Source: Adlercreutzia muris (lineage in GTDB: Bacteria > Actinomycetota > Coriobacteriia > Coriobacteriales > Eggerthellaceae). From it: a stretch of DNA of 64,000 bases. Shown here one piece after another: positions 4,309 to 31,600 of the stretch. A program made the translations under genes and the position numbers. Under the pieces are notes generated by a model that saw nothing but the letters and a program-made list of their open reading frames with translations, ran no database searches and was not told the DNA's origin. Each line of letters opens with the position of its first letter. Position 1 is the stretch's first letter. The DNA is taken from NCBI RefSeq assembly GCF_008831045.1, contig NZ_WAJS01000011.1, forward strand, positions 1 to 64,000, read 5' to 3'.

Positions 4309-4317
4309 GGCGGTCAT

Positions 4318-4544: not shown

Positions 4545-4676
4545 TTACTCCTCCTCCCCTTCCTCTTCCTCGTCTTCCTCCTTGCGGCGGCTGATGAGGA
4601 CGAGCAGCAGGGCCGCGGCGCCCAGCAGGGTGAGGCCGAACAGCCAGGGCATGAGCTCGTCGCCGGTCTGGGGCAG
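4545..4676 (-). other. LPQTG cell-wall sorting signal and acidic tail of giant protein
   Basis: The last 43 residues start with LPQTG (codons 4662-4676). About 20 hydrophobic residues rich in Leu and Ala follow, then RRK. This is the classic sortase signal: cleavage between Thr and Gly, membrane hold by the hydrophobic segment, basic stop-transfer. Unusually, RRK is followed by an 11-residue acidic tail (EEDEEEEGEEE) before the stop. Such tails normally end soon after the basic residues. Confidence 0.97.
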
Positions 4677-7600
4677 CTTCAGGTAGAACAGGTTCGTGCC
4701 CCACGGGGTGGTGACCACGACGGTGTTCCAGTCGTCATCGCTGCCGGTCATGCCAAGGTCCACGGAGCGATCCGTCTCGGGCGTCCAGTCGTAGGGCGCC
4801 AGCAGGTTGAACTTGTGGCCGTAGGCGTTGGGGGTGGTGCGCACCTCGGTGAAGGAGCCGAGCACCGCCATGGCCGGGGTGATGCCCACCTTGCCCGTGC
4901 CGAGCACCGAGCCGGCGGCCTCGCCCCAGTCGGAGTCGTTGTTATCGTCGCTGCCCACCTCGATGGGCACGAACTCCTTGCCGTCGGGCATGGTGGCACG
5001 CACCCGGTAGATATAGGGCGTGTTGGCGCCGTCGACCATGGGCAGCCCCTCGAAGCGGTAGGCGCCCTCGGCGTTGGTCTCCTGAGAGGCCACCTCGGTC
5101 CAGCCGTCGCCGCCCTCCACGGTCTGGCCCTTGATGGCAGCCAGGGCCGTGGGCTTGTAGGAGGCGCCGTTGAAGCCGACCGCCGCCGTATCTCCCAGGG
5201 TCTTGCGCTCCAGGTACACCGTCAGACCGGGCACCGGCTCGGCGGTCTCGTCCTGCAGACCGTCGGCCTCCGGATCGTCGAAGGCAATGCCGGCGATGGT
5301 GGCCAGGGCGTAGGGCACCAGGCCCGTGTCGTTGAAGTCGGAATCGACGCCCATGGAGATGACCCAGGTGGTGCCGTTCGGGCCGGCCAGGTAGGCTGCG
5401 CCGTTGCCGACCAGATCGGAGCGATCCGACGGGGAGGCCAGCACGATGAGGCCGCCGTGGGGATCGGCCGGATCGAGGAGCTTGGTGTCCTCGTTCAGGT
5501 CGGAGTCGGTCTCGTGGGAGCCCTTGTTCATATGGGTCACGCCGAAGCCGGCCGGCAGATCGTCCACGGTCACCTCGAAGCCGTAGAGCACGTAGGTTTC
5601 CTCGCCGTCCACCATGCGCTTGCCGGCCACGTCCAGGTCATCGAAGATCCAGCGGCCATCGGCGTCCGAGGTCACCGTCTGGCTGAAGGTCTCGTCCAGC
5701 TGCCAGCCGTCGGCGGAGTACCAGTAGCGCTTCAGGCTCACGGGCACGCCCGCGATCCGCCCGGTCTCACCGGCATCCTGGATGCCGTCGTAGTTGTCGT
5801 CGCGCCACACCACGCCGGCGATATGGGCCTGGGCGATGCGGAACAGGCCGTAGCCGTGGTGCAGCGAGCTGAACCAGTTGATGTCGGACCACATGTTGTC
5901 GCCCTCGAGCTCCATGCGGCGGGCCTGGTAGGCCTCGTACAGGTCGTGGTCGCCCGTGCCGTCGTAGACCGGCGCGTTGGCCGTGCCGTCGGCAGCGGTG
6001 GCGTCGGTGGTCTCCCGGCCGTCGGAGCCCAGGTACACCGGCTTGCCGCCGAGCATCTTCTGCTTGCCGAAGATGGCCTCGTGGTAGTCGGGGTGCGTCT
6101 CGTGCAGCTCGTCCAGGTCGGCCAGCAGGGCCTTCTCGATCCAGGCCAGCACCTCGTTCTTCAGGCTGTCGGTCACGGTAATGCGGGCCACCGGCCTATC
6201 GCCCTGGTAGAGCGTGGTGAGGAAGGCGGCCTCGGTGGCTGCGCGCACCGTGCAGTCGGCATGGGTGCAGCCGGCCTCGGTGCAGAAGCCGTCGCCGTCC
6301 TTCTCATGCAGGCACGCAGAGCAGGTGTCGCACAGGCCGTCGCCGTCGGTGTCGGCCACGGCGCGGTCGTCGTGGTTCGCCAGGCAGTCGCCGCACAGAT
6401 CGCAGCGGTTGTCCAGATCGCCGTCCACGTGCTCGCACTCGGTGCCAGCCGGAGCCGGGCAGCAGTCGCTGGCATGGTCGCAGCCCGGCTCGGTGCACAG
6501 GCCGCCATCCTTGACGTGGACGCACTCCTTGCAGGCATCGCAGAAGCCGTCGCCGTTGCCGTCCTCGTGATCGCAGTTCTCCGGATCGCGGTTGACCTGA
6601 GAATCGAAGGTGGCGTAGGCGCCCTGGGTCTTGGAGGATTCGGACTCCGTCGCATCGGCCAGGGTGGTCAGCACGATGAGGCCCTCGCTGGCGGCGTCGG
6701 CCGGGTCGATGGGCAGGGTGTAGTCGCCCTTGTGGCCGGCGGCGTCGGGGATGTTCGGGCGCAGGGAGCCGAACTCCTCATCGAAGTCGGAGTTGATGGT
6801 GTCATCCAGCTCGTCATCGACGTGCTGCAGGGTGGGCGCGTAGGCCTCGGGCTCGGGATAGCTCACCACTTCGGCCCTGTAGGCGAACAGCACCTTGAAC
6901 TCGGCGGTGTTCTCACCGGAGCGGTGGGTGCCGGTGCCGTAGGCCATGAACTCCCAGCGGCCGTTCTCGTCGGTGGTGGCGAAGCCGGAGCCGGGCACGT
7001 ACTTGAAGTACTGGTCGTTGCCGTCCTTGTCCTCGCTCACCCACTGCTCGCGCACCTCGTCGGCCGGGGCCACGGCCAGGGCCTCCTCCTCGGTCAGCGG
7101 CAGATAGGTGTGCTCGCCCAGGCCGTCCTTGGACAGATCGTGGACGCCCGTGAGCTCGGCCAGGTCGGCCTGGGAGAAGCTGTAGTCGCGGCGCCAGACG
7201 CCCTTCTCCCCTTCCGGCGTGGCCTCGCCGATCTTATCGATGCAGGCGTCGAAGGCCTCGCGGATGACCCGCCTGTTGTCGGGCCCCTCGGTGTAGCTGT
7301 TGAGGGAAGTGCCCTGGGTGGCCTCGAACACGTTGAGCTTGTTCAGGGCCGCGCGGTACACCGCCTCGCGGTCGGCAGCCGTGGCGTTATCCAGGTCGGC
7401 GCCGATGGCGCCGAGCCAGTCGATCATGGCCTGGGCCGCGGCCGCGGGATCGGCCACCGCGTCGTCCTCGTCCTCCACGTAGGCCGGGGCCATGGCCTCG
7501 ATGGCCTTGTACTCGTCCTTCGTGAGGCCGGAGTTCTTGTAGCTGCCGTCGCCAGCGGCGTTCTCCCAGTAGCCCATGCCGGCATCGTCGTACCAGTAGC

Positions 7601-10600
7601 GCACGAGGCGGATCACGGCGCCCTCGATGCCCGCCTCGCCCTCGGTCATGAGGCCGTCGGAGTTCTCGTCGTTCCACACGTCGCCGTCGATGAGCACCGG
7701 CAGGCGCTTGGTCAGGCCGGCGTCGAAGGCGCGCTTGTAGTACATGCGGTTCGCGAGGTCGTAGTCGTTCTCCATGTAGGTGATGGCATAGGCGCTGGCC
7801 AGCAGGCTGCCGTTCATATCGGCATCCTCGTCCACCTGCTCGGCCACCACGGCGTACACCTCGTTGGCCTTGTCGGCATCGTTCACGTTGTCGGTGAGCG
7901 ACGACTCGAAGGAGGTGAGGTCGGAGTTGTTGCCCGTGCCGGCACCGTCCACGTGGAAGCGGCTGGCCACGTACTCGCCAGAGTCGTCCACCACCTTGAT
8001 GGCGTAACCGGTCAGGTACGGGGTGGCCATGGTGAAGTTCGGGTCGGCATCGGCCAGGACCTGCATACGGTCGTCGTAGGCAGCCTTCAGCTCGGCGTCA
8101 GCCTGGATGAGCTTCATCTGCTCGCCGGACAGGGACTTGATGTCCTCGGCCGACAGCGACGCGATCATCTTCACCGACACCGGGCGGGCGTGCAGCACCT
8201 TCAGGTCGGAGGTGGACAGCGCCGTGCCGTTGGCGTTGGGCACACCGTAGGGCTGGTAAACCTTGGTCATGTCGGCCGGCTTGGAGGCGGTGACCACATC
8301 GCCGTCCACGAGCACGTAACCGGGCAGGTTGTTGAACTCGTAGATGCCCTCCGCGTTGGTGAGGGTCCACAGCTGGTGGGCCTCGATGACCACGCCGCCG
8401 CAGTCGTCGCACTTGCCGTCGCCCTTGCCGTCGGCGCCATCGGCATCGCGGTGGGCCGCCGCGGCGTCCACCACGGCCCCGCAGCCGGCGCAGGTGGCCG
8501 TATGGGTGTTATTCAGGTTGTCCTTGTAGGCGAGGCCCTTGCCCACATGGTCGCAGGCCGGGGTCGTGGCCAGGGAGGCCTTGCAGATATCGCAGACCTG
8601 GTCGGCGTCATCGTCCACGTGGGGCGCATCGTCGGCGAGCACCGTGTTGCAGCTGCCGCACGTCACATCATGGGTGCCGTCGCCGTTGTCGGTGGCCACC
8701 GCGCCGTTGTGCAGGCACGCACCGCAGGCGTCGCAGCAATCGTCGCCGTCGCCGTCGGAGCAAGCAACGTTGGCCTCGGTATAGGTGCAGGCCGGGTTAT
8801 CGCAGGTCACCGTATGGGTGCCATCGTTGTTGGCGGTCACGGTGCGGTTGTCGTGGGTGCAGCTCGGGTCGCCGGGGTCGGTCACCTGGGTGTTGCCGTC
8901 ACCCTCGCCGTCGGCCAGGGCCGCCGCACTCACGGGCACCGCCGCGGGCGCCACGCGCCGGGCCGCGGGCTCGCCGGCCTCTCCGCCGGCCTCGGGGTCG
9001 GTAGGCTCGCCCGGGTTCTCCGGGTCGGTAGGCTCGCCGCCCTCGCCCTCGTCGGGTTCGTCGGCGCCGTCCTGGTACTGGTAACCGCCGGCCAGGTTGG
9101 TGTTCTCCACCCACACGCCGGAGTCGCGCAGCACGCGGACATGGGCCTTGCGCAGGGCATCGTAGTCGTAGGTACGGCCGGAGCGCACCAGGTACACCTT
9201 GCCGTCGGCACCCACGACGATGTTGCCGCCCTTGCCGTCCACCAGGCGCAGGTCGCCGTCCTCGTTCTCGTAGAAGACGTTGCCGTCCTCGTCCTCCAGC
9301 AGCTGGTGGCCGCGGTCGTACTCGGGCACGAAGTAGTACTGGGTGAGGATGACGCGCAAGTTCTCCACGCCCTCCTCGGTTTTGTCGCTGTCCTCGGTGT
9401 CGAAGCGGTCGTCGGAGGTGTCGGAGTCGTTCACGCCGTCGTAGTCCTCGTCGTACCAGGCCTGGCCCACCAAGCTGGAGCGGTCCGGCGGCACGAAGCC
9501 GGCGTTCATGGAGGCCTGGTTCTGGCCCGCGGCGAAGTCGTAGCCGTTCTCGCCCGCGACCGTTTCCTTAACGGGGTTGCCGTCGGCGTCGTAGACCGGC
9601 TTGCCGTTCTCGTCGGTCTTCACGCGCTCCTCGGACCAGGGGAAGACGGCCTTCTGGGCCGCCAGGCTGGCATCGTCGGAGGCGCCGGCCAGCACGATGC
9701 GCCAGTCGGCGGCGTTCTTGGCGATCTCGCCCTCCACCGTGGTGCAGGTGCCCGCAGGCAGGGTGCAGGCGCCGTCGCTGTGGGCCCCATCGGCGGTCTG
9801 GATGTTCGGCTCGTCGAGGAACACCGGGTAGTTGTTGTTCTCGTAGTGCTTCCACACCTCGGCCAGGCCATCAGGGTTGCCGGCGTCCTTGTCCTCGGCG
9901 GTCACCATGGGCTGCACCCGGGAGTTCACGACATCGTGGGCCGTGGTCTGGGCCTCGAAGGTGGTCACGAGCAGCGAGCCCATGCCGTCGTCGGCCTTCA
10001 CACCGTTCACCTCCACGGTGTAGGACGCGAGGGTGTACTCGTACTTCTTCGCCGCGGCGTTCCACTGGCGGTAGGCCGTGGGCAGCTTGTCGAAGAGGTA
10101 GTAGCCGGTCACGGCCTTGCCGCCGAGCTTGCCCTCGGAGACGAGGGTCGGATGGGTGCCGGTCAGCACGGCCACCTTGCCGCCGCCCAGGTTCTTCGAG
10201 CCCGGGATGGTCTGAGTGAGGTTGGCGGTCTCGCCGGGCTTCAGGGTGTTCTTGCCCGGGGTGGTCACGTCGGCGGCCTTCACGTTGGTGTCGTTGCCGA
10301 AGTCGGCGTTCTGCACCCAGGTGCCGTCGGCGGCCAGCAGCCACTGCTTCAGGATGACCTGCTTGCTGTTGTAGCCGTACTCGATGAAGTCCTCGGTGAC
10401 CTCCTTGCCGTCCTTGGTGAGCGTCTTGCGCACCTCGGTGTTGTAGTTGTACAGGCCGTCGTAGTCGGCATCCTCCCAGACGAAGCCGTCGATGGCGTAG
10501 GTGGGCGGGATGATGATGCCGCCGTCGTTGTGGTCGCGGCTGGCGCCCATCATGAGGTCGTAGGCCACCAGGTCGCCCTTGCGCATCGGCTCGGCCACCA

Positions 10601-13600
10601 CGGGGTTGCCCTCGCCGTCGGTCACCACGTCGCCGTTCTCGTCGCGCTCGTAGTTGGGCGTCTGGTCGGCGTTGTGGGAGGCCGGGGCGTACACGATGTT
10701 GGAGCCGTGGGAGGTCAGGCCGTCGGGGGTCTGGCCGTCGGCGTTCACGGTCTCCAGCAGCACGATCATCTCGCTGCCATCGGTGTCCACCAGGTAGTTG
10801 TCCTCGGACAGGTCGGAGTCGTGACGGTAGTCCACGGGCGCCTCGGCGGTGCCGCGCACCTGGTACTTGGCCTTGAAGTCGGCCGCATCCGCCACGGAAT
10901 CCTCGGTGACGCGCACCTGGTAGCCGTAGACGACCCACTGGGTGGTGCCGCCCACGGTGCGCAGGCCCGCGGTCTCCAGGTTCTCGAAGCTGTAGGTGCC
11001 GTTGCGGTACAGGTCGTTGCCCACCAGCTCCTCGTTGAAATCGAGGGTGAGCGCGGTCTTGTCCGTATCCTCCTCCACGAGCACCTTGCCGGTCACGGCC
11101 TTGGCCTCGCTGGTGCCGTCGGGCGCCCAGGCCGTGGTGTCGAGCACCCAGTCGGTGCCGTTGAACCAGTAGCGCTCCAGGGCCACGGCGTAGCCGTTGA
11201 TCGGAGCCTCGTCGGTGCGGGCGCCGGTCTCCTCGTCCACGAAGGTGTCCTGGATGCCGTTGTTGTTGGCGTCGTTCCACAGGATGCCGCGGATGGACTG
11301 GCGCGTGGGATGGGTGGCGCCCACGTAACCGCCGGCCAGCGGGATGCTGTAGCGATCCCACACCTCGTGCTCGAGACCGCCCTCATCGGTCCAGCTGTCC
11401 ACGAGCACGCGCTCGGTGTCCACGGTCAGCCAGTCGTAGGCCGCCGTGCCGGCCGTGCCGGCCAGCAGCTGGGACAGGGGCACCCGCGCGTAGTCGGCCG
11501 GGTCGGCCAGCTTGGTCTTGCCCTCGCCGTCGCTCACGCCTTCGCTGGCCAGCACGATGCGGCCGCCGTTATCGTTGCCACCGAGGTTGCCCTGGGCGGT
11601 GCGGGTGCCGGCGATCACGGTGCCGTCCTCGGCCACAACCTCGGCCCGGTCGGTCACCACGCGGCCCGCGCCGCCGGTCAGGGGCGCTACGCCGGTGCGG
11701 TCGAGGTTCTCAGCATCGGAATCCACCGTGACGTCCTCGCCCACATGGTAGCGGGTGAGCAGCCAGTTCTCGCCGTCGGCCGCATCGGAGCCGCCGGCGC
11801 CGAGGCCGTCGAACTCCACCTGGTAGCCGGCGAGCGCGTAGGTGTCGCCTGCCAGGGCCACGGTGCGGTCGGCGGCGATCTTCAGGGCAGAGGCCTCGGC
11901 ACCGACGCCCACGATGGCGCTCGGCAGCTTGTCGAAGCCGTAGGTGCCCGCGTCCAGATCGGTCTTCACCGTCTTGCCGTCGCGGTCGTAGCCCACCGGG
12001 CCGGTGGTCACGGTGCGGACGCCGCTGTTGTTGGGGGTCAGAGTCTGCTGCCAGGAGGTGGTGCCGGTGTCGGCATCGGTCACCGACTCCCACTTCACCT
12101 CGGCACCGAAGCCGGTCACCTGGGCCCAGGTCTGGGCATTGCGGTCGTAGGCCCACTGGGTCAGGGCCACGGTGCGCCCGGGCAGGCCGGCCTCGTAGAC
12201 CGTCTTGCCGTTCTCGGCCCAATGGTCGCGAATGCCGTTGTAGGAGCGCTCGCGCTCGGCACGGTCGAGCAGCAGATCGCCGGACCAGGTGTCCTGATAG
12301 GAGTCGTCCCACATAATGCCGTTGATGGAGGCGGTCGGCACGGCGATGAGGCCGCCGTCGCCGCCCTGGGCCGACTGCACGTTCATATCGGTGTCGTAGG
12401 TGACGCCCTTGTAGGTCTTCTGGGTCTTGTCGTTGGTGGACGTGGAGTGCTTCTCGCGGGCGATGATGACCATGCCGTCGGCGCGGGTGGGGGTGCTGCC
12501 GTCGTCGGCCTTGTCGGCCACGCGGTTCACGAGCGTGAACTGGCCGCCGTCGATGTTGGTGCCGCCCATGTTGCGGAACAGGTCGGAGTCGGCCGTGTAG
12601 TCCTCGGCCGCTTCCACTCCGTCGTCGCCGTTGGCATGGGCGCGGGTCAGCGTGTAGCCGGCCGGCACCGATTCCACCTCCACGGTGTAGCCGCACAGGT
12701 AGTCGGTGTCGGTGCTCTCATCGGGCTTGCTGAAGCGCGTGGGCACCTCCTCGCTCTTGTAGGTGCCGAGCGGCAGATCCTGGATGATGGTGGTGCCGTC
12801 CACGTCGTAGACGGGCTTGCCGTTGGAGGTGGTGCAGGTGGTGGCCGGCACGTCCACGTGGGTCACGCCGTCGGCCGCCAGGGTATAGGTGCGCTTCCAG
12901 GTGCCGTCGGTCCCACCGCTCTTGTCGGCGGTGTCGAGGTACCACTGGATGATGCGGATGCGCACGCCGGCGATGCCTTTCTCTCCCTCGTCCTGGACGC
13001 CGTTGTAGTTGGCGTCGTCCCAGATGCGGCCGGTGATGGGCGCCGCGGGGGGCATGATGTAGCCGCCGTTGATGCGGGTCTCGTTCTTGCCGAAGGTCAG
13101 ATCGAAGGACACGTCGGTGGCGCCGGCGTCTCCCTCGTGGTTCTTGCCCGAGGCCGCCAGGGGGTACTGGGTACCGCTCACGCGGGCGCCGGCGGCGTCG
13201 GCCGTCGTCGAGCCGGCCAGCACCAGCATGGAGTCCAGGGTATGGATGTCGCCGTCGGAGCTGTACGCGTCGCTGCGCACGAGCGGGAAGGTGTCCAGGC
13301 CGAAGCGGTACTCGCGGGGCAGCCCGGCGTTCACGTTGGACTGGCCCTTGGAGTTCCACAGGTCGTGGTCGGCGTCATCCACGCTGGTATCGTGCGTGGT
13401 AGACATCTCGTACTTGCCCGGGGTGAACGACAGGTTGCCGCGGATGGCCACGGTGTAGCCGGCCAGGTACTCCTTGCCGTCCACGAACACGCGCACCGGC
13501 AGGTCGTCGAACTCGTAGTAGCCGTCGTTGGCCTTGCCGAAGTCGGCAGCGGCCTTGGTCGTGGTGGTGGCGAAGTAGAAGCCGGTCTGGTCGCGGTCGG

Positions 13601-16600
13601 TGTCGTAGGCGCGCACCGGGAACCAGTGGTTGTCGCCGTTGAAGCTGTCGGCGGTGTTCACCCGGGTGGGATCGTAGTACCACTGGCGCAGGTACATGGT
13701 GGTGCCCACGCGACCCTCCTCGGCCGCCTCCAGAGTCAGGTCCTCGCTCGGGTCGTCGGGGTCGGGGTAGGTGCCAGGCGTGCGGGAGTACCAGCCGTCC
13801 TTGTAGGCGTTGTCGCGCCACACGTAGCCGCCGATGGCGCGGTAGGCCGGGGCCACCTCGCCCACATCGCCGGCCTCCTCGGTGGCCACGGGGCGGGTCC
13901 ACTGGTAGGTAGCCGCGCCCGCAGTGTCCATGGCGCTTCCCGCCGGGATGGCGGCGAAGGCGGCCGGGATGCCCTGGGTGGTGTCGGCCTGGACGGTGCC
14001 CAGGATGACCTGGCCGTCGTTGGCGCGCAGGGTCTTGTCGGCGTAGCGCTCGATGACCGGGAAGCTGTGGTAGTAGGCCCGGGCCGGCTCGGCGGCGGCC
14101 AGGCCGATCTCGTCGGCATTAGCGGCCGGGCCGGTGGTGCCGTCGTCGGTGGCGTTGGAGTCCACCGTGAGGTCGGTGCCCTCGTTCACCGCGGTGATGT
14201 GCCACGGGTCGGCCAGCGTGCCGTCGGACTTCAGGTAGTTCTTCGCGGCGGCCAGCTCCACACGGTAGGCGGCCAGGAAGTACTCGTCGGTGCCGGTGGC
14301 GTCGTTGTAGACCACCACGGCCGTAGGCAGGTTGTCGAAGACGTACTCGCCGTCGGCCACGGGAACCTGCGTGCCGTCGGCGGCGGTCTTGGTCGCGGCG
14401 CCCTGGGCGTAGGTGCGCACGGCCACCACGGCGTCCTTGCCGCGGCCGTCGGCGCGATTCTCGCCGCCGGTCACCACGGGCACGCGCTCGAAGTGGCCCG
14501 GATCGGTGAGGTCGGCCGGATCCTTCACGAACTTCAGCTCGGTGGTCACCCAGTCGGAGCCGAACCCGATGTTCTGCACCCAGGCGCCCTGGGCCCCGGC
14601 GGGGGCGGCCTCGTCGGTGGAGGTGGTGCCGTCGGCGGCCACCCACTCCACGATGCCGGCGGCCTCGCCGGTGGCGATCTGATCGAAGATGGGGCTCGTC
14701 GCGGGCACGTAGTACCACTGGGTGGCCAGCACCACTTCGCCGGCCAGGCCCTTCTCGTCGGCATCGCGGACGCCATTGGGAGCCGTGTTGTCGTCGGCAT
14801 CGGTGTCGTTCCACACGATACCGGTGATCTGGGAGGTGGGCACGCGGAACAGGCCGGTGTTCACCGACGCGCGGGCGGCCACCTGATGGGCCGTATCGTA
14901 GTCCACCCCGCCCATGGAGGCGCGGTAGGGCGTGTTCGCGGGCACGGAGCCGTCGGCGAGGGTGGAGGCGTCGGCCGTCAGGATGAAGCCGGTGTCCTTG
15001 GCAAAGCCGCCGTCGGGCTGCTCGCCGGCCGCCGCAAACTGCGGGTAGGCCGTGACGATGGGCGTGTCGTAGCCGTCCACCTCGGCCGAGCGTCGTACGT
15101 CGCGCTTGGCGTCGGAGTCGGTGTCGGAGGAGCCCACGCCGCTGTGGTACACGGTGAGCACGTGGCCGGCCGGCACCTCGGGCACCGTCACGCGGTAGGA
15201 GGCCAGGGCCAGCACGTCGTCGGTGGCGGCCGGGTCACCGGCGGCCAAGGGGTTGCCCTCGGCGTCGAACTGCACGTAGGGCAGCAGCCCCTCGGTGGAG
15301 CCGGCCGCGCCGTCCTCGTCGTGGAAGCGGTAGGCGCCGTTGGCGTCGGTGTCCATGGCATAGAAGCCGGTGCGGCCCGTGACCGTACCCGTGACCTCGT
15401 CGACGACCTCCTCGCCGAAGGCGGGGTTCTTGATCCAGGCGCCCACTACGGCGTCGGCGTCGTCGCGCACCAGCTCGATGCCGTGGATGTCGTTCACGTC
15501 CACGTCCTCGTAGGTCTTGGCGGCCCGCAGCACCTGGCCCTTGTTGTTGGTCACGGCGGCGGCCTGGAAGCGCGACACCACCTTGCCGTCCACGGTGACG
15601 TTCACGAGCGAGCCGTCCAGGTAGAACCACTGGGCCAGGCGCACCTCGGTGTCGGCCAGGGCGGCATCGCCATCGGTGCCGATCTCCTGCACGCCGTCGA
15701 AGTCGGCGTCGTACCACAGGGTGCCGGCCACCTCGGTGGTGCCGAAGTAACCGTAGCCGCCGGAGAGCTTCTCCTCGCTGCGGCCCGTGGCCATGTCGAA
15801 GGACACCTTCACGCCGTCACGCACCTGGTCGATCTTGTAGTTGTCGTCCTGGGTGTAGGTGGTGGTGTTGCCGGCCAGCACGATCATGCCGTCCAGGGTG
15901 GAGTTCGAGGTGTTGTTGTGCAGGGCCACGTCGTCGTTGTCGAACATCTGCGGCGCCTGGCCGGTGAGGTTCTGCCAGCCGAGCGGGTAGTTGGCGTTGC
16001 CGTAGGTGTCGATGGAGGCCGCGCCGTCGGTGTAGGTCACCGTGCCGCCCACGTTCTCCAGCAGCTGGGTGCCGATGACCTGGGCCGTGGACTCGTGCTC
16101 GTCTTCGGCCAGGGCATCACCCCGCTCCTCGATGCGGGTCACGGGCACATTCAGGGTCTCGCTGGTGGCCACGGCGTCGCCACCGGCCACCTCCACGGTG
16201 TAGCCGGCCAGGTACTCGGTACCGTTCACGGCCACGTACACGGGCAGGTTGTCGAAGGAGTAGAAGCCGTCGTAGTGGCCCTCGTCGGTGCCGGGGGCAT
16301 CGGCGGCCACGGTGCGGGTGAAGCACTCCACCGTACCGGCGGCCGCAGCGGCCGCGGCGCGGAGACCGGCGGCCACGAAGGCGGCCAGGGCGCCATCGGC
16401 CCCGTCGCCGCCGGTCGGGGGCACCGGGGCGTCGACGTTGGTGAAGTCGGCCACCTGAACCCACTGGCCGCCCGTGCCGTTGCCGTCGGCGTCGACGGCG
16501 GTGCCGGGCACGAAGTACCACTGCTTCAGGATGACCTTCTTGCCCACCAGGCCGCGCTCGGTGTAGTCGGTGCCGCCCACGGTGAAGCGGTCGGACGCAC

Positions 16601-19600: not shown

Positions 19601-22600
19601 TATCGCCAGCGGGCACGAAGAACCACTGGGATAGCTGGAGGGTCTCCCCCGCCACCGGCTTGTCGCCCGTCTCCTTGGCGTTCACGTCCTTCTCGCTGTA
19701 GAAGCCGTCCACGTTCTTGTCCTGGAACACGGTGCCGGTGATCTTGCCGGTCTCATAGGCGCCGAAGCCGCCGTCGAGGTTGCGCTCGTCACGGCCGAGG
19801 TTCCAGTCGAAGGCCACCGTGGCGCCGGGATTGACGGCGTCGTCGGAGGTGCGGGTCGTCACCGTGGAGGCGGCCGGGCTGTTGGCCTCGGCCACGCCGG
19901 CCAGAATGATCTTGCCGTCCATGGTGTGCTTGGTGAAGGCGTTGCCCGCCTCGTCGGTGCCGTAGGTGGACTGCTCGGTGGCCTCGTTCCAGGCCAGGCG
20001 ATAGTTGCCGTTGAGATCGCCGTCGACGTTCCTGGTGGCGGAGACCGTCATGTTGGCGGCCTGGGAGTTCACCACGTCGTCGTCGCGGGTGCCGTCGGTG
20101 GGGCGCTGCTGCTTCAAGGTGGCCGGCAGGCCGGTCACGGCCTGGGCCTTCTGGCCGGGCTCCACCGAAGCGCCGTTGATGTTGCCGAGCACCTCCACGG
20201 TGTAGCCGGCCAGGTACTCGGTACCCAGCTCATGGCCCTTGTGGGCCTTCACGAAGCGGGTGGGCAGCTTCTCGAAGAGGTAGGAGCCCACGGCCGCGGC
20301 ATCCACGGTCTCGGTGGTGGTGCCGTCGCCGTTGTCCACCACGGTCTTGCCGTCAGAGGTGAGCAGCCAGATACCGCCCTCGGTGCTGTCGTAGGTGGAG
20401 CCGGGGATGGTGGTGAGCGTGGCACCGGCGGCGGTCACCGTGGCGCCGAACTCGGCCTGGGTGTAGTTGTCGTTGCCGAAGTCGGTGTTCTGGATCCATT
20501 GGCCAGTCGCGCCATCCTCGCTGGGCACGTAGTACCACTGCTTCAGGATAACGCGCTTGCCGGCCAGGCCCGGCTCGCCCTCGTCGCGAATGCCGTCGTA
20601 GTCGGTCGCGGCAGCGGCGGTGAAGGCGTCATCGGCATCGCGCCACAGCACGCCGCCGATCTTCTGGAACAGCGGCACGCGCAGGCCGCCGTCGTTGTGA
20701 ACGCGGGTGATGCCCCACGCCATGTCGTAGCGGCGAGTGGCGCTCGTCACGTCGGACACCTCGTTGGCCGGCTTGCCGGCCTCGGCCGCGGCCTCGTCCT
20801 CGCCGTTGTTCGGGTTCTTGGAGTTCGGCGCGAAGCGGCGGTTGGAAGCTGGCGAGTTGTCGTCGGCCACCTGGAGCAGCACGTCGTACTCGTCGGCGCC
20901 CATGAGGTAGCCGGTGTTGAACACCAGGTCGGAATCGTGGTCGTAGTCGTCGCCGGCAAATCCGGACACCTGCATCTTGGCCGTGCCGAAGAAGCGATCC
21001 CACCAGCGAGCGTCGGTGACGCGCACCTTGTAGGCGTAGATGACCTGCACATCCTCGGTGACGGTGGCGCCGTCCACCTCGTGGGTGAGGCGCGCCCACT
21101 CCTGGGTCTTCAGGCCGCCGAAGCGGTAGACGCCGTCGTCGCCGGTGGCCAGGGTGCGGGCGATGCCGTCGCCGTGATCGGCAGCGGCGCCCAGGCCGGC
21201 CGTCGGGTCGGCGTCGTAGGCCTTCCACTGGTCGGCAGAGGCCCAAGCGGACTTCGCCAGGGCATCGACGCCGGCGGGCAGGGCGTCGTCGCGCACCCAG
21301 TCGGTGGCGGCCACGGTGCCGTCGGCGGTCACGATGGCGTAGTAGCGCTCGAGGGTCACCTCGATGCCGGCGGCCAGGGTGTCCTTGCCGGTGCCGGGCT
21401 CGTCGTCCAGGTCGTCGGCGGTCAGCAGACCGTCGTTGTCGTCGTCGTACCAGATGCGACCCTCGATATCGTCGATGGGGGCCTGCACCTCGCCCACGTC
21501 GCCGCCGGCCACGCGGGTCACGCCGTTCTCGTCCACGGTCACCTTGCCGTCGGCCGTGGCCGGGGCCGTGCGGCTCCAGTCGTAGGCCACCAGGCGGTCG
21601 GTGTCCATGGCCTGGCCGGCGGGCACGGTGACCACGGACTTGGAACCCGAGGTGGCACCGCCGGTGATGAGGCTGCCGCCGTCGCGCGTGCCGGCCAGAA
21701 TGACCTGGCCGTCGTTAGCGCGCGCCTGCACGCCGGCCTCATCGTAGCTGCCGATGACCTTGATGCCGGCAATGCCGGTGTTGGTGATGTCGTCGGCATC
21801 GGAGTCGGCCTGGCGGTCGTCGCCCTGGAAGTGGCGGGTGAGCAGCCACTGGTTGTCAGTGCCGTCCTCGTTCTCGGTGTGCTCCACATCGGCGAGCTCC
21901 ACGCGATAGGCGGCCAGGTAGTACTGGTCGTCGTCGGTCACGTAGGCCGTCGGCAGGTTGGCGAAGTGATACAGACCGAGCTGCTCGGCATCCTTCACGA
22001 CCTCGCCGTTCTCGCCGGTGACTTCACGCACGTCGCCGGTGGTGGTGGCCAGCACGCCCGGAACCAGATCGGCCTCGGTCACCACGGTGCCGTCGCCGTT
22101 GGTGCCCAGCTCGTACAGGGTACCCTTGGCATCCACGCTGTGGCCGTTCACACGGTACACGTACTTGAGCGGCGTCATGGCGTTGCCGTCCAGGAGGATG
22201 GGGGTGAGCACCTCCACGTCCCCCGTGGCGGGGTTCACGTCGCCCGCCTTCACGAGGGCGGTGTTCCCGGCCTGGTAGGCGCCGTCGATATTGGAGGTGT
22301 AGCGGTCGCGGCCGAATTCCTTGTTCTGCACCCAGGCGTAGCGGACGGCCTTGTCGGCATCCACGACGGCACCCGCGGCGTCCACCGGCGCCCAGTACCA
22401 CTGGGTCACCAGCACCGTCTCGCCGGCGATGCCCACCTCGTCGGGATCCTGGATGCCGTTGTAGGTGTTGGGCGAGGCGGAGCCGTCGGTCGGGTCGATG
22501 TCGTTCCACACCCGGCCCGTGATGTCGGCCCGGGGCACGGCGTACAGGCCGGCGTCGCCGCCGCGCTGAGTACCCATGGGATCGGGCACGTCGTAGGCGA

Positions 22601-25600
22601 CCGAACCGGTGGCCCCGCTGCCGTAGGCCTGCTCGTACTGATGGCCGTCGCCGCGCAGGGCATGATCGCTCACGAGCACGTAGCCGTCGGTGCGCCAGGC
22701 GGCCAGCACGCCGTCGAAGAACTCCTCGCGCAGCTCGATCTCGTCGGCGGGGTTGCGGATGGCGTCGGAGTCCGCGTCCTCGCGGCCGTCGGTACCGGTG
22801 CCGGTGCCGTCGGTGGCGCCGGGATGATCGGCCGGCTTGGAGGTGGTGGTCAGGTTGCCGGCACCGTCCACGGTATCGGTCTCGATGTTCATGCCCACGT
22901 GGGTCTTGGTGAGCGAGAAGGACGGGGCGATCTCGGAGAGCACGAGGCGGTAGCTCACCAGGTAGAGCTTGTCGGTGTCCACCTTCTCGCTATTCTCGTC
23001 GGGACGGCCCGCGGCCTGCTTCTCGCCAGGCTGGTAGATGCCGGCGTTGGCACCGTCCTGGGCGTAGACGAAGCTCGGCAGACCGGAGAAGGCGTAGTCG
23101 CCGGCCCCATCGGTGACGGCGGTCATGGCACCGCCGCCGTTGAAGCCGTCCACGCGCACCCAGGCGCCCACCACGGCATCGGCGTTCGTGCCGTCGCCGC
23201 GCACGGGGCGCACCGTGGCGTTCGCGGGCACCACTTCGCCGGTGTCGGCCACGAAGTGGGCGGCGTCGCCCTCCCCTTCCATGGTGCCTTCCACGTAGTA
23301 CCACTGGGTCAGGGTCAGGCTCATGTCGGCCAGGCCGTGCTCGCCGTCGGCGGTCTCGAACAGGCCGTCGAAGTCGTCGTCCTGCCACACGGTGCCCTCC
23401 ACGGTGGTGGTGCCGAACAGGCCGAAGCCAGCGTTCAGGCTCACCTCGTCGCGGCCCACGGAGAAGTCGAAGTCCACGGGCACGTCCGTGTCGTCGGCGG
23501 CCCCGTCGTTCTTCCACAGGCCCGTGGTGGTCACACGGTACTGGCCCGCAGTGGCGTTGGCGTTCACGGCGGGGGTCAGCTCACCCTCGGCCGGGGCGGC
23601 CAGGATGATGCGGCCGTCCAGAGTGGCCTTGGTGAAGGGGGCGCTCACGCCGTCGGCCGCAGGGGCCTCGGCCTGGCAGGTGTACTCGTTCCAGCGCACC
23701 GGGTAGTTGCCGGCAGCGCAGACGTCGGGCACCAGAGCGCCCTCGGCGGCGGTCTCGGCGGAGACCGCCTGGGAGTTCACTCGGTCGGCGTCCCCGTCGA
23801 TGGTCCAGCTCTCCTGGCCGTTGGCATTCACCTGCAGGCGCGTGGCCGGCAGGCCGTTCATGGACTGGGCGGCGCCATCGTCGTTGCCGAGCACCTCCAC
23901 GGTGTAGCCGGCCAGGTACTCGCGGGCCGGCTGCTTCACGCCGTCCACCGTAGCGCGAACCGCGGTGTAGCGGGCCGGCAGGTGGTCGAACAGGTAGTCG
24001 CCGGCCGTATCGGTGGTCACCCACACGCCCTTGCGGGCGGCATCGTAGGTGGCACCGGCAATGGTGAACAGGGCGGAAGCGGCCGCGGAGGTAGTGGCCG
24101 TGGCACCAAACTCGGCGCGGGTGTAGTAGTCGTTGCCGAAGTTCTCGTTAAGCTGCCAGGTGCCCTTGGCATTCCCCTCGCCGGGCACGTAGTACCACTG
24201 CTTGAGGATGACCTTCTTGCCCTCGAAGCCGGGCTCGCGCACCAGGGTGGTCTCCGGCTTGCCGTCGGTGCCGAGCACCGGGTTGCCATCGCCGTCGAGC
24301 ACCGGCTCGGTGCGGTTCAGGGTGCCGTCGTAGTCGGTGTCGTTGAACACCACGCCGGCGATCTTGTTGGCCACGGGCGTGCGCAGGCCGCCGTCGGAAG
24401 AGGCGCGGTCGGCGCCCAGGCCCAAATCGTAGGTGAAGCGGGCGCCGTCGTCGGTGGACACGGCGTAGCCGGAGCCGTCCACCACACCGGCCAGGGCCCC
24501 GCCGTTGCGGTCGGTGACCGCCTCGGGCAGGGTGAGCGTGGCGGCGTCGCCGGCGGCCACGGCCTTCTCGTAGAGGGCCGCGGCGTTGCGGTCGGCGCTG
24601 TTCTGGTTGGCGTTGCCGGAGGCGGGCACGATGGCGTGGTTCGCCCGCGGCGACTCGGCGGTCACCACGTTCAGGAGCACGTCGTACTCGCCCGGGGCGT
24701 TCAGGTAGCCGTCGGTGTAGATAAGGTCGGAGTCCACGGTGCAGTCGTCGCCCATACGGTACTTCGCGGCGCCGATGGTGCGCTCCCAGAAGTCGGTGTC
24801 GATGAGGCGCACCCGGTAGCCGTAGATGGTCACCGAGGCGGGAATGACCGTGACCTGCACGCTCTCCTCGCCGGTATCGGGATCGGTGAAGGGAGTCTCC
24901 ACCTTCTGGGCCGGGTTGTAGCGGTGGCTCGGCAGGTCGGAGAACTCGTAGCGGCCGTCGGCGTCAGTGGTGGTGCCGCGGGTGCCGAGGCCCGTGGTCG
25001 GGTCGGCGTCGTAGGCATCCCACGCGGCCTGGTCGGCCCAGGTGAGGTCGCGCTCCCACGCGGCGCCGTCGGCCACGGCGAAGGAGCCGTCGGCCTGTTG
25101 CACGGCGGTAATGGCCCAGCGCTCCAGAGCCAGGGCGCGATCGGCCTCGCCGGGCTCGCCGGCAGCGCTGCCGTCGGCGGCCGGGCCGTCGTAGATGCCG
25201 TCGTTGTCGGTGTCGTTCCAGATAAGGCCGCTGATGGTCTGGCGCGGGGCCTGGGTCTCGCCCACATCGCCGGCCTCCACGGGAACCACGGTCTCGGTGG
25301 TCACGTTCGTGTCGGGGTCGGTCACCGTGGCGGTCTCGGGATCCATGATCCAGTCGTACACCTCGGCGCCCGTGCCCATGCCGGCCCCGGCGGGCAGCGC
25401 CACGAAGGCGTTGGCATTGGCGTGGGTGTACTCGCCCGCCTCGTTGGTGGTCGTATCCTGGGCGGCCCAGGCCAGGATGGTCTGGCCCTTGAAGCCGCGG
25501 GTGGTGCGGGTGGCGGCCGTGCCGTCCACGGCGGTGCCCTCGGAGGCCAGGCCGCAGGTGGCGGCGTCCAGGCGGCCGGCGATGACCATGCCGCCGGCGA

Positions 25601-28600
25601 TGCCGGTGCGCTCGGTCACCGACAGGTCGGCAGCCACGTCGGAGTCGTCGGTCACGGAAGCCGTGCCGTTCACGCGGGACAGCTCGGCCCCGTCGCCGTT
25701 GTGGTGGTAGCGGGTGAGCACCCACTGGTTGTCGGTGCCGTCGGCGGCGTTGCCGGCCGGCTCGCGGTACAGATCGGCCAGCTCGGTGCGGTAGGCGGCC
25801 AGGTAGTACTGGTCGTCGTCGCTCACGAACACCGTGGGCAGGTTCTCGGCCAGCCACTGGCCGTCCTCGTTGGTGGTGGCCGCCAGGGCGCCCTCCACCC
25901 CGTTCACCCTCGCCAGAGGCGTCTGGGCGGCGGCGTTGCCGTCGTAGATGATGGGCTCCACAGGCTCGCCGTCGGCGCGGGCGCCGTACTTGTTGGAGGT
26001 GTAGGTGTCGGCGCCGAAGAGGCTGTTGCGCACCCAGGCGCCCACGCAGTCGTCGCCGGGGACGAAGTCGGCGGCATCGGCGGCGGCCACGGAGGTGACG
26101 GTGCCGTCGGCGGCCACGAAGTCGGCCTCGGTGTCGGCGATGGCCTCGAAGGCGGTGCTTCCGGCCGGCGCCCAGTACCACTGGGTGAGGTAGACGGTCT
26201 GGTCGGCCAGGCCGCGCTCGCCGTCGTCCTGCACGCCGTTGTAGCCGCAGGACACGTCGTAGGTGCCGTCGGCGTTGTAGATGCCGGTGTCGTCCCACAC
26301 GCGGCCCGTGAGGCTCGTGCGCGGGATCTTCACGAGGCCCGCGTGGCCGCCGCGCTGGGCGAACAGCGGGCGCGGCACGTCGTAGCGCACCCCGTTGTAG
26401 ATCTGCTCGTACTGGTAGCTGGCCGCATCGCGCTCGGTGCCGGCGTCGTTGTAGCGGTTGCCGTCGGCGCCGCGGGCGGCCACGATCACATAGCCGTCGG
26501 TGCGCCAGAAGCTGGCGTTGTTCTTGTTCTCGTCGGCCTCGTCGCGGTCGTCCTTGTTGTAATTGTCCTCGGTGTTCTTGTCGTACTCGTCGAAGGTGCC
26601 CTCGCCCATCCAGGAGTTGTCGAAGTACTCGTCGACGATCTGGATGACGCGGTCGCCCGCCGGATCGGGGCGCAGGGCGTCGGAGTCGGAGCCCTCCAGG
26701 CCGGGCACGGTGATGGCGGACATATCGCCCAGGGTCTTGTCGCCCACGTTCACGCCCACGTGCGGCGTGGTCAGGCTGAAGTCGGGGGCCACCTCGGCCA
26801 GGGTGATGCGGTAGGAGGCCAGGTACAGCTTGTCCAGGGCCACCTCGTTGGCCTCCAGGGCGCCGGTCAGGTCGGTGTCGTTGGGCTGGAGCACGTACAG
26901 GTCGTTGGCGGCCGGCGTGCCCGGGGTGTTCTCGTCGCCCTCGGTGGCGGCGGTGAAGCTGCCGCCCAGGTACACGAAGCTCGGGAGCTGCTCGAAGGCA
27001 TAGGCCCCGGCCGCGGCGTCGGTCACGGAGTCGGGACGGGAGAAGCTCGTGCGCACATCGGCCACGTCGATGGTCGAGGCGCCGGCCTCGGCAACCTCGG
27101 CGTCGTAGGCGGCCTGCTTCTCGGCGGCGGTCTTCACGTGGACCCACGCGGCCTTCACGGTCTCGTTCGGGGTCTTGTCGGGGTTGCGGGTGATGACGTT
27201 GTCGATGCGGTCCACGGTGAAGTTCTCGGGGTCGGCGGCCAGGGCCTCGATGAGGGCCGCATCGTCCACGTAGAACCACTGGGTGATGGACAGCTTCTGG
27301 CCGGGCACCGGCTCCTCGCCGACGTTCAGGATGCCGTCGAAGTTGTGGTCGCGCCACACCTTGCCGGTGATGGCGGTGTAGCCGTACTCGCCGAAGCCGG
27401 CGTGCATGCGGGTCTCGTCGCGGCCACAGGACCAGTCGTAGATGACGGTCTGGTCGGCCGGCTGGCCGTTCTCGTCGCGGGCGGCCACCTCGGCGCCGGC
27501 GGCAGAGCCGGCGGCCTCAGCCCCGCGGGTCTCGTTCACGTAGTACTGGGGCTGGGTGCCGCGGGACGTGGCGGCGGCCGCATCGGCGCGGGCGCCGGAG
27601 GCGGCGTCGCGGGTGGGCTCGCCGTCGCCGGCGGTCGGCTGGGCCTCGGCCTGGCGGGCCAGGACGATCTTGCCGTCGAGCGCGGCCTTCACCGTGGCTC
27701 CGGCGTCGTCGGTCACCTGAACGGTCAGCTCGTTCATGCGCACGGGATAGTTGCCGTCGGTGTAGTCGGCGAAGTTCTGCTCATGGGAGCCCTTGGCCGC
27801 CAGCGCGCTCACGGCCTTGGAGTTCATGGCGTCGTCGGCATCGTCGGTCTGCAGCAGCGTAGCGGGCAGGCCCGGGATGGCCTCGGCGTTAGTGGTATCC
27901 ACCGCGCCTCCCAGCACCTCCACGGTGTAGCCGGCCAGGTACTCGCCGGCGGGCACGGCCAGGTTGCTCGGGTCCACGACCACGGGCTGTTCGTCCTCGT
28001 CCTCCGGCTCGCTCATGATGTCGCCGTGGCGGGCGGCCACGAAGCGGGTGGGCAGGCGATCGAACAGGTAGTCGCCGGCCACGGTGAGGGTGCTGCCGTC
28101 GTCGGCGGTGCTGTCGCCGTCGGTGAGCACGGTGACGCCCACGCCCTCCAGGTAGGTGGCGTTCGGGATGATGGTGGTGAGCCCCTCGGCGTAGGCCTCG
28201 TCGGTCGTGGTATCCACCACGGACACGTCCTCGGTGGAGCCGTCGGGACGGGTAACCGTCTCGGTGCGGTAGGTCACCGATCCCTCGGCCACGGTGTAGC
28301 CGTCGTTGCCGAAGTTCCCGTTCAGGATCCACTCGTTGGCGGTCACGGCCTCGGCGGTCACGCCGTCGGCCAGGGTGGTCTGGTCTTCGTCGACGAAGGC
28401 ATCGGCCTCGTCGATGACCTCGCCGGCGGCGTTCTTGTACACCGTGCGGGTCACGGGGGCCCAGTACCACTGCTTCAGGATGACGCGCTTGCCGGCCAGG
28501 CCCAAATCGCCGGTCGGAGCGGTGCCGCCCTCGCCGTCGCCCTCGCCGTCGGCCTCGGCGTCCGCAAGGGGCGCCTCGGCAGCGGGCAGGGCGTTCATCT

Positions 28601-31600
28601 GGCGGGTGCGGGCCAGGGTGCCGTCGTAGTCGGCGTCGTGGAACACCCGGCCGCCGATCTTCTGCTGCACGGGCACGCGCAGGCCGGCGTCGTTGCCGGC
28701 GCGGTCGGCGCCGCGGGCCAGGTCGAAGGCGAGCACGGGACGGAACTTGCCCGCGCCATCGTCGGCCGCAGCGGCCTCAGCGGCCGTCGCGGCGCCGCCG
28801 GCTGCGGCCGCGGCGGCGTTGGTGGTGTACACCCACTCCACCGGGTCGCCGTCGTAGCGGTCGTTATCGCCGTAGCGGTCATGGCTGTTCTGGTTCGGGT
28901 TGTCGGGGTTCAGGGCGCGGCGCAGGTTCACCGACGGCGAATCGCCGGCCTTCACGTCCAGCAGCACGGTGTACTCGGACGAATCGCCCTCGGCGGCGGT
29001 GCCGCTCATGAGGTAGCCGTCGGCGTGGACCAGGTCGGAGTCGGCCTTCCAGTCCTCGGCATCGGCGGCGTAGGAGGAACCCTGGAGGTACTTGGCCGTG
29101 CCCCAGTAGCGGTTCCACCAGTCGGCCTCGGTCAGGCGCACCCGGTAGCCGAACACCACGAGCTTGGGCTCGGCGCCCTCGGTGCCGTCGGCCACGGCCA
29201 CGCCGTCCTTGAACGGCAACCAGCCCTGGGTCTTCAAGTTGGTGAACTCGTAGGAGCCGTCGGCCAGGGTGATGGCGTTGTGGGTGCCGTCCACCTCGGA
29301 CTTCACGGGCACGGGAATGCCGTACTCGTTCAGCACCAGGGTCACCGGCGCGTACTCGGCGGGCTTGGTCTCGTCGCCGTTCTCGTCCACCTCGGCATCG
29401 GCCACGCAGGCGAAGGCCTCAACCTCGGTCACCTTATCGGTGAACAGGGCGGCCAGCTCGGCCTCGTCGTAGGCCTCGTAGGTGCCGGCGGTCTCCTTGT
29501 AGTAGGTCTCCACCTCCATCTTCGGGCAGATGACGCCGTTGGCGTACTGCATGAGCAGCACCTTCTCGTAGACGCCCTTCACGCCCACGGCCGGGGCCAC
29601 CACCTGGCGGTACACCTCGGCGGTGGTCATGGGGGCCGGGAAGAGGGCCGCCAGGTCGGCCTCGCTGTAGGCAGCGTAGCTCACGGTGCCGTCGGTGGGA
29701 TCGGTCACCTCGCGGTACCAGGTCTCGTCCTCCCCTTCCTCGGGAGCCTCCCAGGCGCCGTAGTGGTTGTCGCCGGCCAGGCCCTGGGTGCGGTCGGCCT
29801 CGTAGGCGGCCTGCTCCGCAGCGGTGGACCAGGTGGGATCGGCGTGCCAGCCGTTACCGGCCACCGAGGCCTCGTCGGTGCCGAGGTCCTCGGCCAAGGT
29901 GTAGAAGCGCTCCAGGGTCAGCTGGGCGCCCTTCACCGGGGCGTCGGCGGCCTCATCGCCCTCGCCGGCGTTCACGGTGCCGTTGATACCGTCGTTGTCG
30001 GCGTCGTTGAATACCACGCCGGTGATCTTCTGCGTGGGCGGCTTGATCTCGCCGGCGTCGCCGCCGCGTACCATCTTCTTGGGCAGGCCCGTGGCCGGGT
30101 CGATGACATCGGTGCCGTCGTCGTTCTTCAGGGTGCGGTAGGTCAGCCAGTCGTAGGTGAGGTAGCGGTCGGTGGGAACGAGCACCTTCGTGCCGTCGGC
30201 CATGACGTAGGCGTCGTCACCCGGGGTGTCGTCGACGGTCTTGTTGACGACGTCGGCCAGGGGCACGGTCACCTTGGAGGCCTGCAGGTCGCGAGCGGCC
30301 GTATCCGGGTCGATGTTGGAGTGCTTCACGCTCTCGGCCTCGCCGGCCAGGATGATGTGGCCGGAATGGGACCGCACGCCGGCGTGGGCGCCGCCGTCCA
30401 GGGTCAGCACCTCGTCCTGGGCCGTGATGGCGATGCCGCCGTTCTTGCCCAGGGTGCCCTCGGCGTCGGAATCCACATCGTAGGCCGCGGTCGGGTCGGA
30501 GCCGTCGGCACCGGGCAGGGTCTTGTGGTAGCGGGTGAACAGCCACTGCTCGTCGTCGGCCGTGACGGTCTGGTCGCCGGTGGTGAACAGGCGCTTGCCC
30601 ACCTCCACGCGGTAGCTGGCCAGGTAGTGGCCGCCGTCGGGGGCGGTGTAGGCCGCGGGCAGGTTGTCGAAGGTGTACACGCCGCGGGTGCTCTCGTCCA
30701 CGCGGTCCACCTCCACGTCCACGGCATCGTCGCCGGTGCCCTCGGTGACGGCCTCGGTGTAGTGGCGCGCGTCGGCCGTCTTCACGGCGATGACGCCGCG
30801 GGCGCCCTCCACGTTCCACGCATCGGTGGAGCGGGGGTTCACCTGGTCCTCCTCGGCCGGCAGGCCGGTGACCGGATCGGTGGCCTGCTCGCCGGTGACC
30901 GGATCGATGACCGGCACCTTCACGGTGTGGCTCGTCATCTTGTCGGTGCCGAAGGCGAGGTTGCGCACCCAGAAGCCAGATCCGTCGGAGGCGGGCTCGA
31001 AGTCGCCAGCCTCGAGGGCCTCGGCGGGCACGCCGGCCTCCTCGGCCAGCTCCGCCACGCGGGCGGCGTCCTCCTCGGAGAGCGTATCCTTGGCGGCCAG
31101 CTCAGCCAGCTCGGCGTTCACCGTGAAGCGGAAGGCATCGGCGGCGCCGTCGGCGGCCTGGTTGCCGTTCAGATCGGCGTAGGGCAGGTAGTACCACTGG
31201 GTCAGGTACACGGCCTGGTCGGCCAGGCCCGGCTCCCCGTCGTCCTGGATGCCGTTGTAGGCACGTTCGCGGGCCGCGGCGTCGTGGGCGTTCTCGTCGG
31301 TCTCGTAGAACGAGTCGTCCCACACCTTGCCGGAGATGCTGGAGCGCGGCACCATGACCAGGCCGGCGTCCCAGTTGTACAGACGGGCCGCGTCGCCCAG
31401 GTCGTAGACGGTGTTCACGTCGCCGAAGAGCATCTTGCCGTTGCCGTAGTCCTCCTCGGACTCGTACTCCAGCTTCTCGGCCAGGTAGGTCTTGTACTTG
31501 CCCTTGTAGGTGGCGTACTCGTCGTTCAGGGTGTTGTAGATGGCCAGGGCCTCCTCGTAGCGGGCGGTCTTGGCGTCAAAGTCGGCCTTGAGGTGGTCGT

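Follow-up and report, generated by a model that had tools for sequence, protein, structure and literature searches.

The 64,000-nucleotide window analyzed here (positions 1 to 64,000 of contig NZ_WAJS01000011.1 of Adlercreutzia muris, RefSeq assembly GCF_008831045.1) carries a giant open reading frame (ORF) on its minus strand. The C-terminal, anchored end of the encoded protein is an array of 26 SdrD_B-type domains that occupies the last third of the frame. We conclude that these domains follow a cycle of four types, A, B, C, and D, and that the array quite probably arose from a four-domain module that was duplicated as a block, in frame, before the genera that carry it split, and was then fixed as a super-repeat stalk. 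In our best reading, the array is a bacterial counterpart of the super-repeats of titin and nebulin, and the opposite of the variable periscope adhesins. The four-type super-repeat appears to be new for bacteria, whereas giant genes, the super-repeats of titin and nebulin, and the domain alternation of SasG are known.

The units were cut at a conserved start motif, the first starting at position 31337 and the last ending at 4677, and were typed, unless stated otherwise, with ortholog-built position profiles (hhalign) and a tree of 356 units. The original prediction, made from the sequence of the window, had proposed 26 SdrD_B-type units running through four A-B-C-D cycles, one A-C-D cycle, a further A-B-C-D cycle, and a diverged tail. 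BLAST, profiles, and tree all bear out this order, and the cycle lengths measured from the A starts (5.0, 3.8, 4.0, 3.7, 2.5, and 4.6 kb) are identical to those proposed. In all-against-all BLAST within the giant protein, similarity peaks at lags of 4, 8, and 12 units (mean scores at lags 1 to 12 for units 1 to 17: 24, 32, 27, 93, 22, 32, 22, 86, 21, 32, 22, and 62 bits). The excess at multiples of four, 57.8 bits, was matched in none of 100,000 permutations of the order of units 1 to 17 (permutation maximum, 39.9); periods were not scanned, because a period of four had already been proposed. Domains at the same position in successive cycles are more alike than neighbors are, with a core identity of 46.5% at lag 4 versus 27.5% between neighbors. 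The nearest neighbor in sequence space is of the same type for 21 of the 23 typed units when single sequences are compared, and for 23 of 23 with the ortholog-built profiles. The 356-unit tree likewise groups units by type, and adjacent units do not group, which is the outcome that had been named in advance as the check.

The control set comprised one long SdrD_B array and two short ones. In the long control, from the same phylum (5,235 amino acids [aa], 32 units), the autocorrelation is flat, and thus a period of four is not a general habit of SdrD_B arrays. The median identity between its neighboring units is 44%, which shows the earlier statement that ordinary SdrD-type arrays are near-identical to be inexact.

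All units lie on the minus strand, and U01 to U22 are supported by start motif, profiles, and tree. The first cycle consists of U01 (A, 30027 to 31337), U02 (B, 28659 to 30026), U03 (C, 27372 to 28658), and U04 (D, 26313 to 27371); the second of U05 (A, 25236 to 26312), U06 (B, 24363 to 25235), U07 (C, 23403 to 24362), and U08 (D, 22524 to 23402); the third of U09 (A, 21468 to 22523), U10 (B, 20661 to 21467), U11 (C, 19743 to 20660), and U12 (D, 18507 to 19742); and the fourth of U13 (A, 17493 to 18506), U14 (B, 16656 to 17492), U15 (C, 15732 to 16655), and U16 (D, 14829 to 15731). In the fifth, U17 (A, 13836 to 14828) is followed directly by U18 (C, 13038 to 13835) and U19 (D, 12327 to 13037; weak by single-sequence BLAST, clear by profiles). 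This A-C-D exception is genuine, and B is missing between A17 and C18 in relatives too. The sixth cycle comprises U20 (A, 11295 to 12326), U21 (B, 10494 to 11294), U22 (C, 9474 to 10493), and U23 (7692 to 9473; start motif and profiles). U23 belongs to D only weakly: its best profile match is to a D unit (D08, E = 3e-16), but it falls outside the D clade.

The remaining units had been described as a diverged tail, which holds for U24 (X; 5823 to 7691, 623 aa, start motif and profiles) and U26 (Z; 4677 to 5297, an SdrD_B unit by profiles and Pfam), both untyped, but not for U25 (Y; 5298 to 5822). By profiles and tree, U25 is a B-type unit: it forms a clade with the B units (support, 0.98) and matches B21 in hhalign at E = 7e-26. 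U23 and U24 contain CxxC-rich inserts (window positions 8400 to 9000 and 6200 to 6600, minus strand), repeated and of the form H-x-D-x-D-G-x-C-D-x-C, which appear to resemble small metal-binding ribbons set within otherwise SdrD_B-type units. Upstream of A01 are two further SdrD_B-like units on the minus strand: the untyped P1 (34068 to 35609), two units before A01 in a region with a Pfam SdrD_B match, and the D-like unit D', which starts at 34067 (hhalign to D19, E = 6e-18) and is followed, within 31338 to 34067, by PASTA and other sequence before A01.

The same array occurs in related genera. The B type was found in 20 of 138 genomes of the family Eggerthellaceae. Searched for across 397 genomes of the order, the C type turned up in 20, every one of them within the family. 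From sixteen proteins, giant or truncated, we compared the C-terminal arrays and gave each unit the label of whichever of the window's 26 units it matched best. Ten proteins, that of the window included, carry all 26 units in identical order; 25 of the 26 were cut or labeled in two others (G136a and Slackia a), and Slackia b and Slackia c were covered only in part. Units correspond one to one across the giant proteins of Adlercreutzia, Enterorhabdus, Parvibacter, and Slackia relatives, and their order along the chain is monotonic and independent of the similarity-based labels. An assembly artifact was rejected as the source of the order, because other assemblies show the same order. The 356-unit tree recovers A (support, 0.998), B (0.89), and C (1.0) as exact clades and D as a clade once D23 is set aside; of 24 positions, 23 form exact clades as well. 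When four B-C-D-A blocks were concatenated (11 proteins, 1,088 columns), every block formed one clade with support of 100, and the duplications therefore predate the split of the genus groups (g1, g23, g32, and g47); species order inside the blocks matches between blocks, as far as it is resolved. Convergence of positions, in place of common descent, is scarcely credible as the origin of the types: no observation in its favor was found, and the types are clades over whole-domain alignments with a matching block-level history.

Two relatives merit separate mention. The finished genome of A. hattorii has a 4,094-aa ORF that picks up the array only from D16, within its second half, and is a truncated or split giant gene. 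Slackia sp. ZJ119 has three giant relatives in one small genome, including an open frame of 34,927 aa on one contig (C39) and two more of about 22,000 and 30,000 aa.

The original prediction had likened the array to satellite higher-order repeats, with a four-type cycle copied as a block. The block duplication and the clustering by type are retained, but the likeness to satellites is not. Satellites consist of near-identical, homogenized copies that are unstable in number, and on that account the cycle would have been copied recently, would still be homogenizing, and would vary in number between strains. The block is indeed a unit of change, as a whole cycle is missing from two proteins. However, same-type copies share only 35 to 56% of core residues, and the DNA self-comparison of the array yields short patches only, of about 290 bp (66%) at most. 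In all 720 comparisons within Adlercreutzia/Enterorhabdus, orthologs lie closer than paralogs, so that concerted evolution is visible in none of them, and order and number are equal across genera. Over all pairs, a paralog is closer in 190 of 4,950, and same-type units are involved in 184 of the 190. We regard recent satellite-like turnover as highly improbable, and at the DNA level it is refuted for this array.

The missing cycle is informative about how the array changes. Exactly four units, C07-D08-A09-B10, are absent from the A. mucosicola protein and from a second giant protein of A. equolifaciens, which have 22 units each. The flanks of the gap are B06-like before and C11-like after in nearly all 40-residue windows, and no hybrid unit was found at the loss in either protein, the breakpoints lying at the B06|C11 boundary in both. 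The protein tree does not join these two proteins as sisters (a sister grouping is disfavored by the AU test at P = 0.026, which is marginal), and the absence may thus have arisen by one loss or by two. Their identical breakpoints and shared lack of the same block would also fit a 22-unit ancestor to which the 26-unit proteins added a block. This is very unlikely, as 26 units are found in Parvibacter, Slackia, and others on either side of the midpoint root in the protein tree, and the units of the block sit in their proper position clades.

Shorter paralogs suggest what the founding layout was. In the same genomes, paralogs of 9,000 to 13,000 aa have the layout D'-A-B-C-D-Y-Z with a single cycle, and in several of them the A unit is triplicated. 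One is the second giant protein of the genome studied here (12,636 aa, contig C2, about 105000 to 160000), which has one cycle with A triplicated. Short paralogs in two genomes (G087 and G089) have other expansions, in which C-D-like pairs are repeated; this hints that expansion of the same module took different courses in different lineages. The short layout looks like the founding one, and we propose that an Eggerthellaceae surface protein with four already diverged SdrD_B-type domains in this arrangement was the starting point. In one lineage, the four-domain module would have undergone several in-frame tandem duplications as one block, to give about six cycles before the Adlercreutzia, Parvibacter, and Slackia groups split. 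The trios B02/06/10, C03/07/11, and D04/08/12 each have support of 100 in per-type trees, and profile similarity declines toward the anchor, a pattern that, as judged from the sequences, is that of block duplications with the youngest cycles distal. Units 2 to 12 would be the youngest part, with similarity falling off toward the cell-wall end. Afterwards, each of the 26 positions would have been inherited separately, with order and number fixed and no detectable exchange between copies; the only changes in length would be the loss, long ago, of a single B unit between A17 and C18 and the absence of exactly one cycle, C07-D08-A09-B10, from two proteins.

Several observations weigh against this account. 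The units of the short paralogs are not at the base of every type, and these proteins may therefore be reduced from a longer array rather than ancestral. The triplication of A on its own in some of them shows that single-unit duplication is possible, and a strict four-cycle is thus not forced by the mechanism alone. These A-triplicated paralogs, together with the A|C junction, also speak against a strict need for order. Trees of type A fit neither an A-B-C-D nor a B-C-D-A block cleanly (A05 + A09 at 91, A01 + A13 at 73), so that the duplicated block may have started and ended in either register, and the per-type trees give no clear order among cycles 1 to 3. The multidomain structure model (mean predicted local confidence [pLDDT], 70; predicted template-modeling score [pTM], 0.55) tells little about interfaces between units.

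Why the order persisted is a separate question. It might be functional in itself, a suggestion we make with some doubt: dedicated A|B, B|C, C|D, and D|A interfaces would let the cycle set the geometry, as a ruler or superhelix, and wrong neighbors would be selected against. The exit linkers and metal-loop patterns are type specific and are kept across species, the sequence of types is fixed across genera, and titin (PMC10665226) and SasG (PMC4458895) offer precedents. Yet the odd junction A17|C18 is stable in relatives, A|A and D|Y junctions occur in short paralogs, 22-unit forms exist, and the interface models are weak. In its specific form, with one superhelix turn or one partner-binding station per cycle (a cell-wall polymer, another giant protein, or host mucin being the partners considered), we think the ruler unlikely; were it true, this would be a bacterial stalk built, like titin, on a periodic scaffold, with whole cycles as the steps in which its length is set. 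Conversely, the order may be only the trace of block duplication, frozen neutrally when the units became too diverged to rearrange by recombination, with the cycle itself under no selection; this reading, too, is tentative. At the DNA level, the copies have by now diverged too far to recombine often, and the patterns of titin and nebulin have likewise been read as duplication history (PMC10665226, PMC1553488). Pure freezing sits less well with the persistence of order and number across genera, given that deletion could still remove single domains, and with the losses seen, which are one old single unit and one whole in-register cycle.

In the reading we prefer, that of a duplicated module fixed as a super-repeat stalk, the array would most likely act as a long, sortase-anchored spacer that keeps the N-terminal 15,000 residues at a distance from the cell wall. 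The cycle probably kept its order because recombination between same-type units probably changes length in whole cycles only, and because unlike neighbors (27.5% identical, versus 46.5% at lag 4) probably lower the risk of misfolding with a neighbor. The latter argument has a precedent in the rule that large multidomain proteins usually keep neighbors below 50% identity, a rule that periscope proteins break (PMC8201768). Periscope proteins are similar to the array in that tandem folded domains form a cell-surface stalk, but they have highly similar neighbors and variable length, whereas the array has neighbors 27.5% identical and a near-constant length of 26 units in ten proteins and 22 in two.

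Close parallels are known from eukaryotes. In the C-zone of the titin A-band, as in the array, same-position domains are more alike than neighbors; the inner repeats are the strongest and the ends are weak, recursive duplication is the explanation given, and position-specific conservation serves to locate binding sites (PMC10665226). Titin differs in being a eukaryotic intracellular protein with an 11-domain cycle of Ig/FnIII domains, in contrast to a bacterial, sortase-anchored, four-domain cycle of SdrD_B type. The seven-domain blocks of nebulin and other multidomain duplications share an autocorrelation peak at block size and the gain of several domains at once (PMC1553488), but such duplications are known mainly from eukaryotes, with a matching exon pattern in nebulin, whereas a single bacterial gene without introns encodes the array, and its roughly six cycles have stayed frozen in the different genera. 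Among bacterial proteins, the E-G5 stalk of SasG/Aap is attached to the cell wall and alternates related domain types in fixed order, and its folding depends on neighbors (PMC4458895); its period is two and its copy number varies between strains, in contrast to the period of four, diverged copies, and near-fixed number of the array. The giant adhesin of Mobiluncus mulieris, also actinobacterial, combines two kinds of Ig-like domain in one chain of 7,651 residues with 51 cross-linked Ig-like domains, and the accessible part of its description reports no fixed multitype cycle (PMC10619420).

Giant LPXTG genes of 74 kb (AEQU_0093 and AEQU_1251) have been known from A. equolifaciens since 2013 (PMC3778203), and a subspecies has smaller homologs (PMC8142583). 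Genus, size class, and LPXTG motif agree with the giant protein of the window, and as far as descriptions allow a comparison, they very probably belong to the same family; the accessible portions of these reports describe large ORFs only, without domain typing or a super-repeat. The original prediction had held that such a cycle was not described for adhesins of this kind. A literature search, with subscription papers outside its reach, turned up no bacterial surface protein described as having a four-type domain cycle, and to that extent the claim stands; it needs narrowing in light of the two-domain alternation of E-G5, the multidomain blocks of eukaryotes, and the giant genes already known. 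Titin-style super-repeats thus appear to have arisen in bacteria too, in surface proteins of gut Eggerthellaceae, with an order fixed and a number near-fixed across genera, in contrast to the variable-length repeat adhesins usually studied. The natural variants with one cycle, about six, and six minus one make the roles of order and number in a giant surface protein addressable, and they bear on whether unlike neighbors protect giant proteins from misfolding.

Membership in the SdrD_B family (PF17210) is judged from sequence profiles. The segment 4545 to 17999 scores 92.9 bits against a cutoff of 29.7, and U25 and U26 pass the cutoff singly. The segment 18000 to 31499 as a whole stays below it at 24.6 bits, and its units are linked by profile-profile comparison to units that pass; 31 of 50 B-type units match SdrD_B at E ≤ 0.1 (best, 8e-7). 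A Pfam DPC2 match of a C unit was under its cutoff and was judged to be chance. AlphaFold folds the single B unit U10 (50 rows) into one compact domain (pLDDT, 88; pTM, 0.88), for which Foldseek found no match in the Protein Data Bank (PDB; best E, 0.39), possibly because long insertions enlarge the domain. The four-unit block model (16 rows) is of modest confidence and consists of beta-rich units with a weak likeness to the tandem pilins SpaD/SpaA and a weaker one to SdrD (best E, 2.6e-4; low TM); a PDB sequence search with the block profile gave zero matches. The share of units with a DxNxDG-like loop is 97% for D, 83% for B, 61% for C, and 15% for A, and a DSD-like motif is present in 80 to 95% of A, B, and D units versus 23% of C units. 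Calcium binding by these motifs is putative.

The window covers the first 64 kb of an 88-kb contig in a GC-rich, 2.77-Mb genome. The giant ORF (4545 to 64000 in the window, minus strand) runs on to contig position 78623, a length of 24,693 codons counted from the most upstream ATG, and a hydrophobic segment near residues 243 to 268, beyond the window, is likely a signal peptide. At the other end, an LPQTG sortase anchor with a membrane helix and a charged tail lies at 4572 to 4679 (minus strand; Pfam and reading of the sequence); the elements of an LPXTG anchor are present (LPQTGDELMPWLFGLTLLGAAALLLVLISRRKEEDEEEEGEEE), and Gram_pos_anchor scores 21.3 bits against a cutoff of 20. The nearest named relative is Adlercreutzia caecimuris (71% identity over a C unit and 72% over shared core columns). 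PASTA domains, usually associated with cell-wall binding, are found on the minus strand at about 56.2 to 57.1 kb, in the N-terminal part, and at about 32.4 kb, directly ahead of the array. Downstream of the giant gene is an ORF of at least 1,439 aa (1 to 4317, minus strand) with no Pfam match at E ≤ 1. The N-terminal part of the giant protein (window 35.6 to 64 kb, continuing to contig position 78.6 kb) contains recurring segments of weak similarity, such as those at residues 3207 and 4403 (23% over 398 aa), with a recurrent GWRFxxxNxS motif, which suggests a second, much older repeat family.

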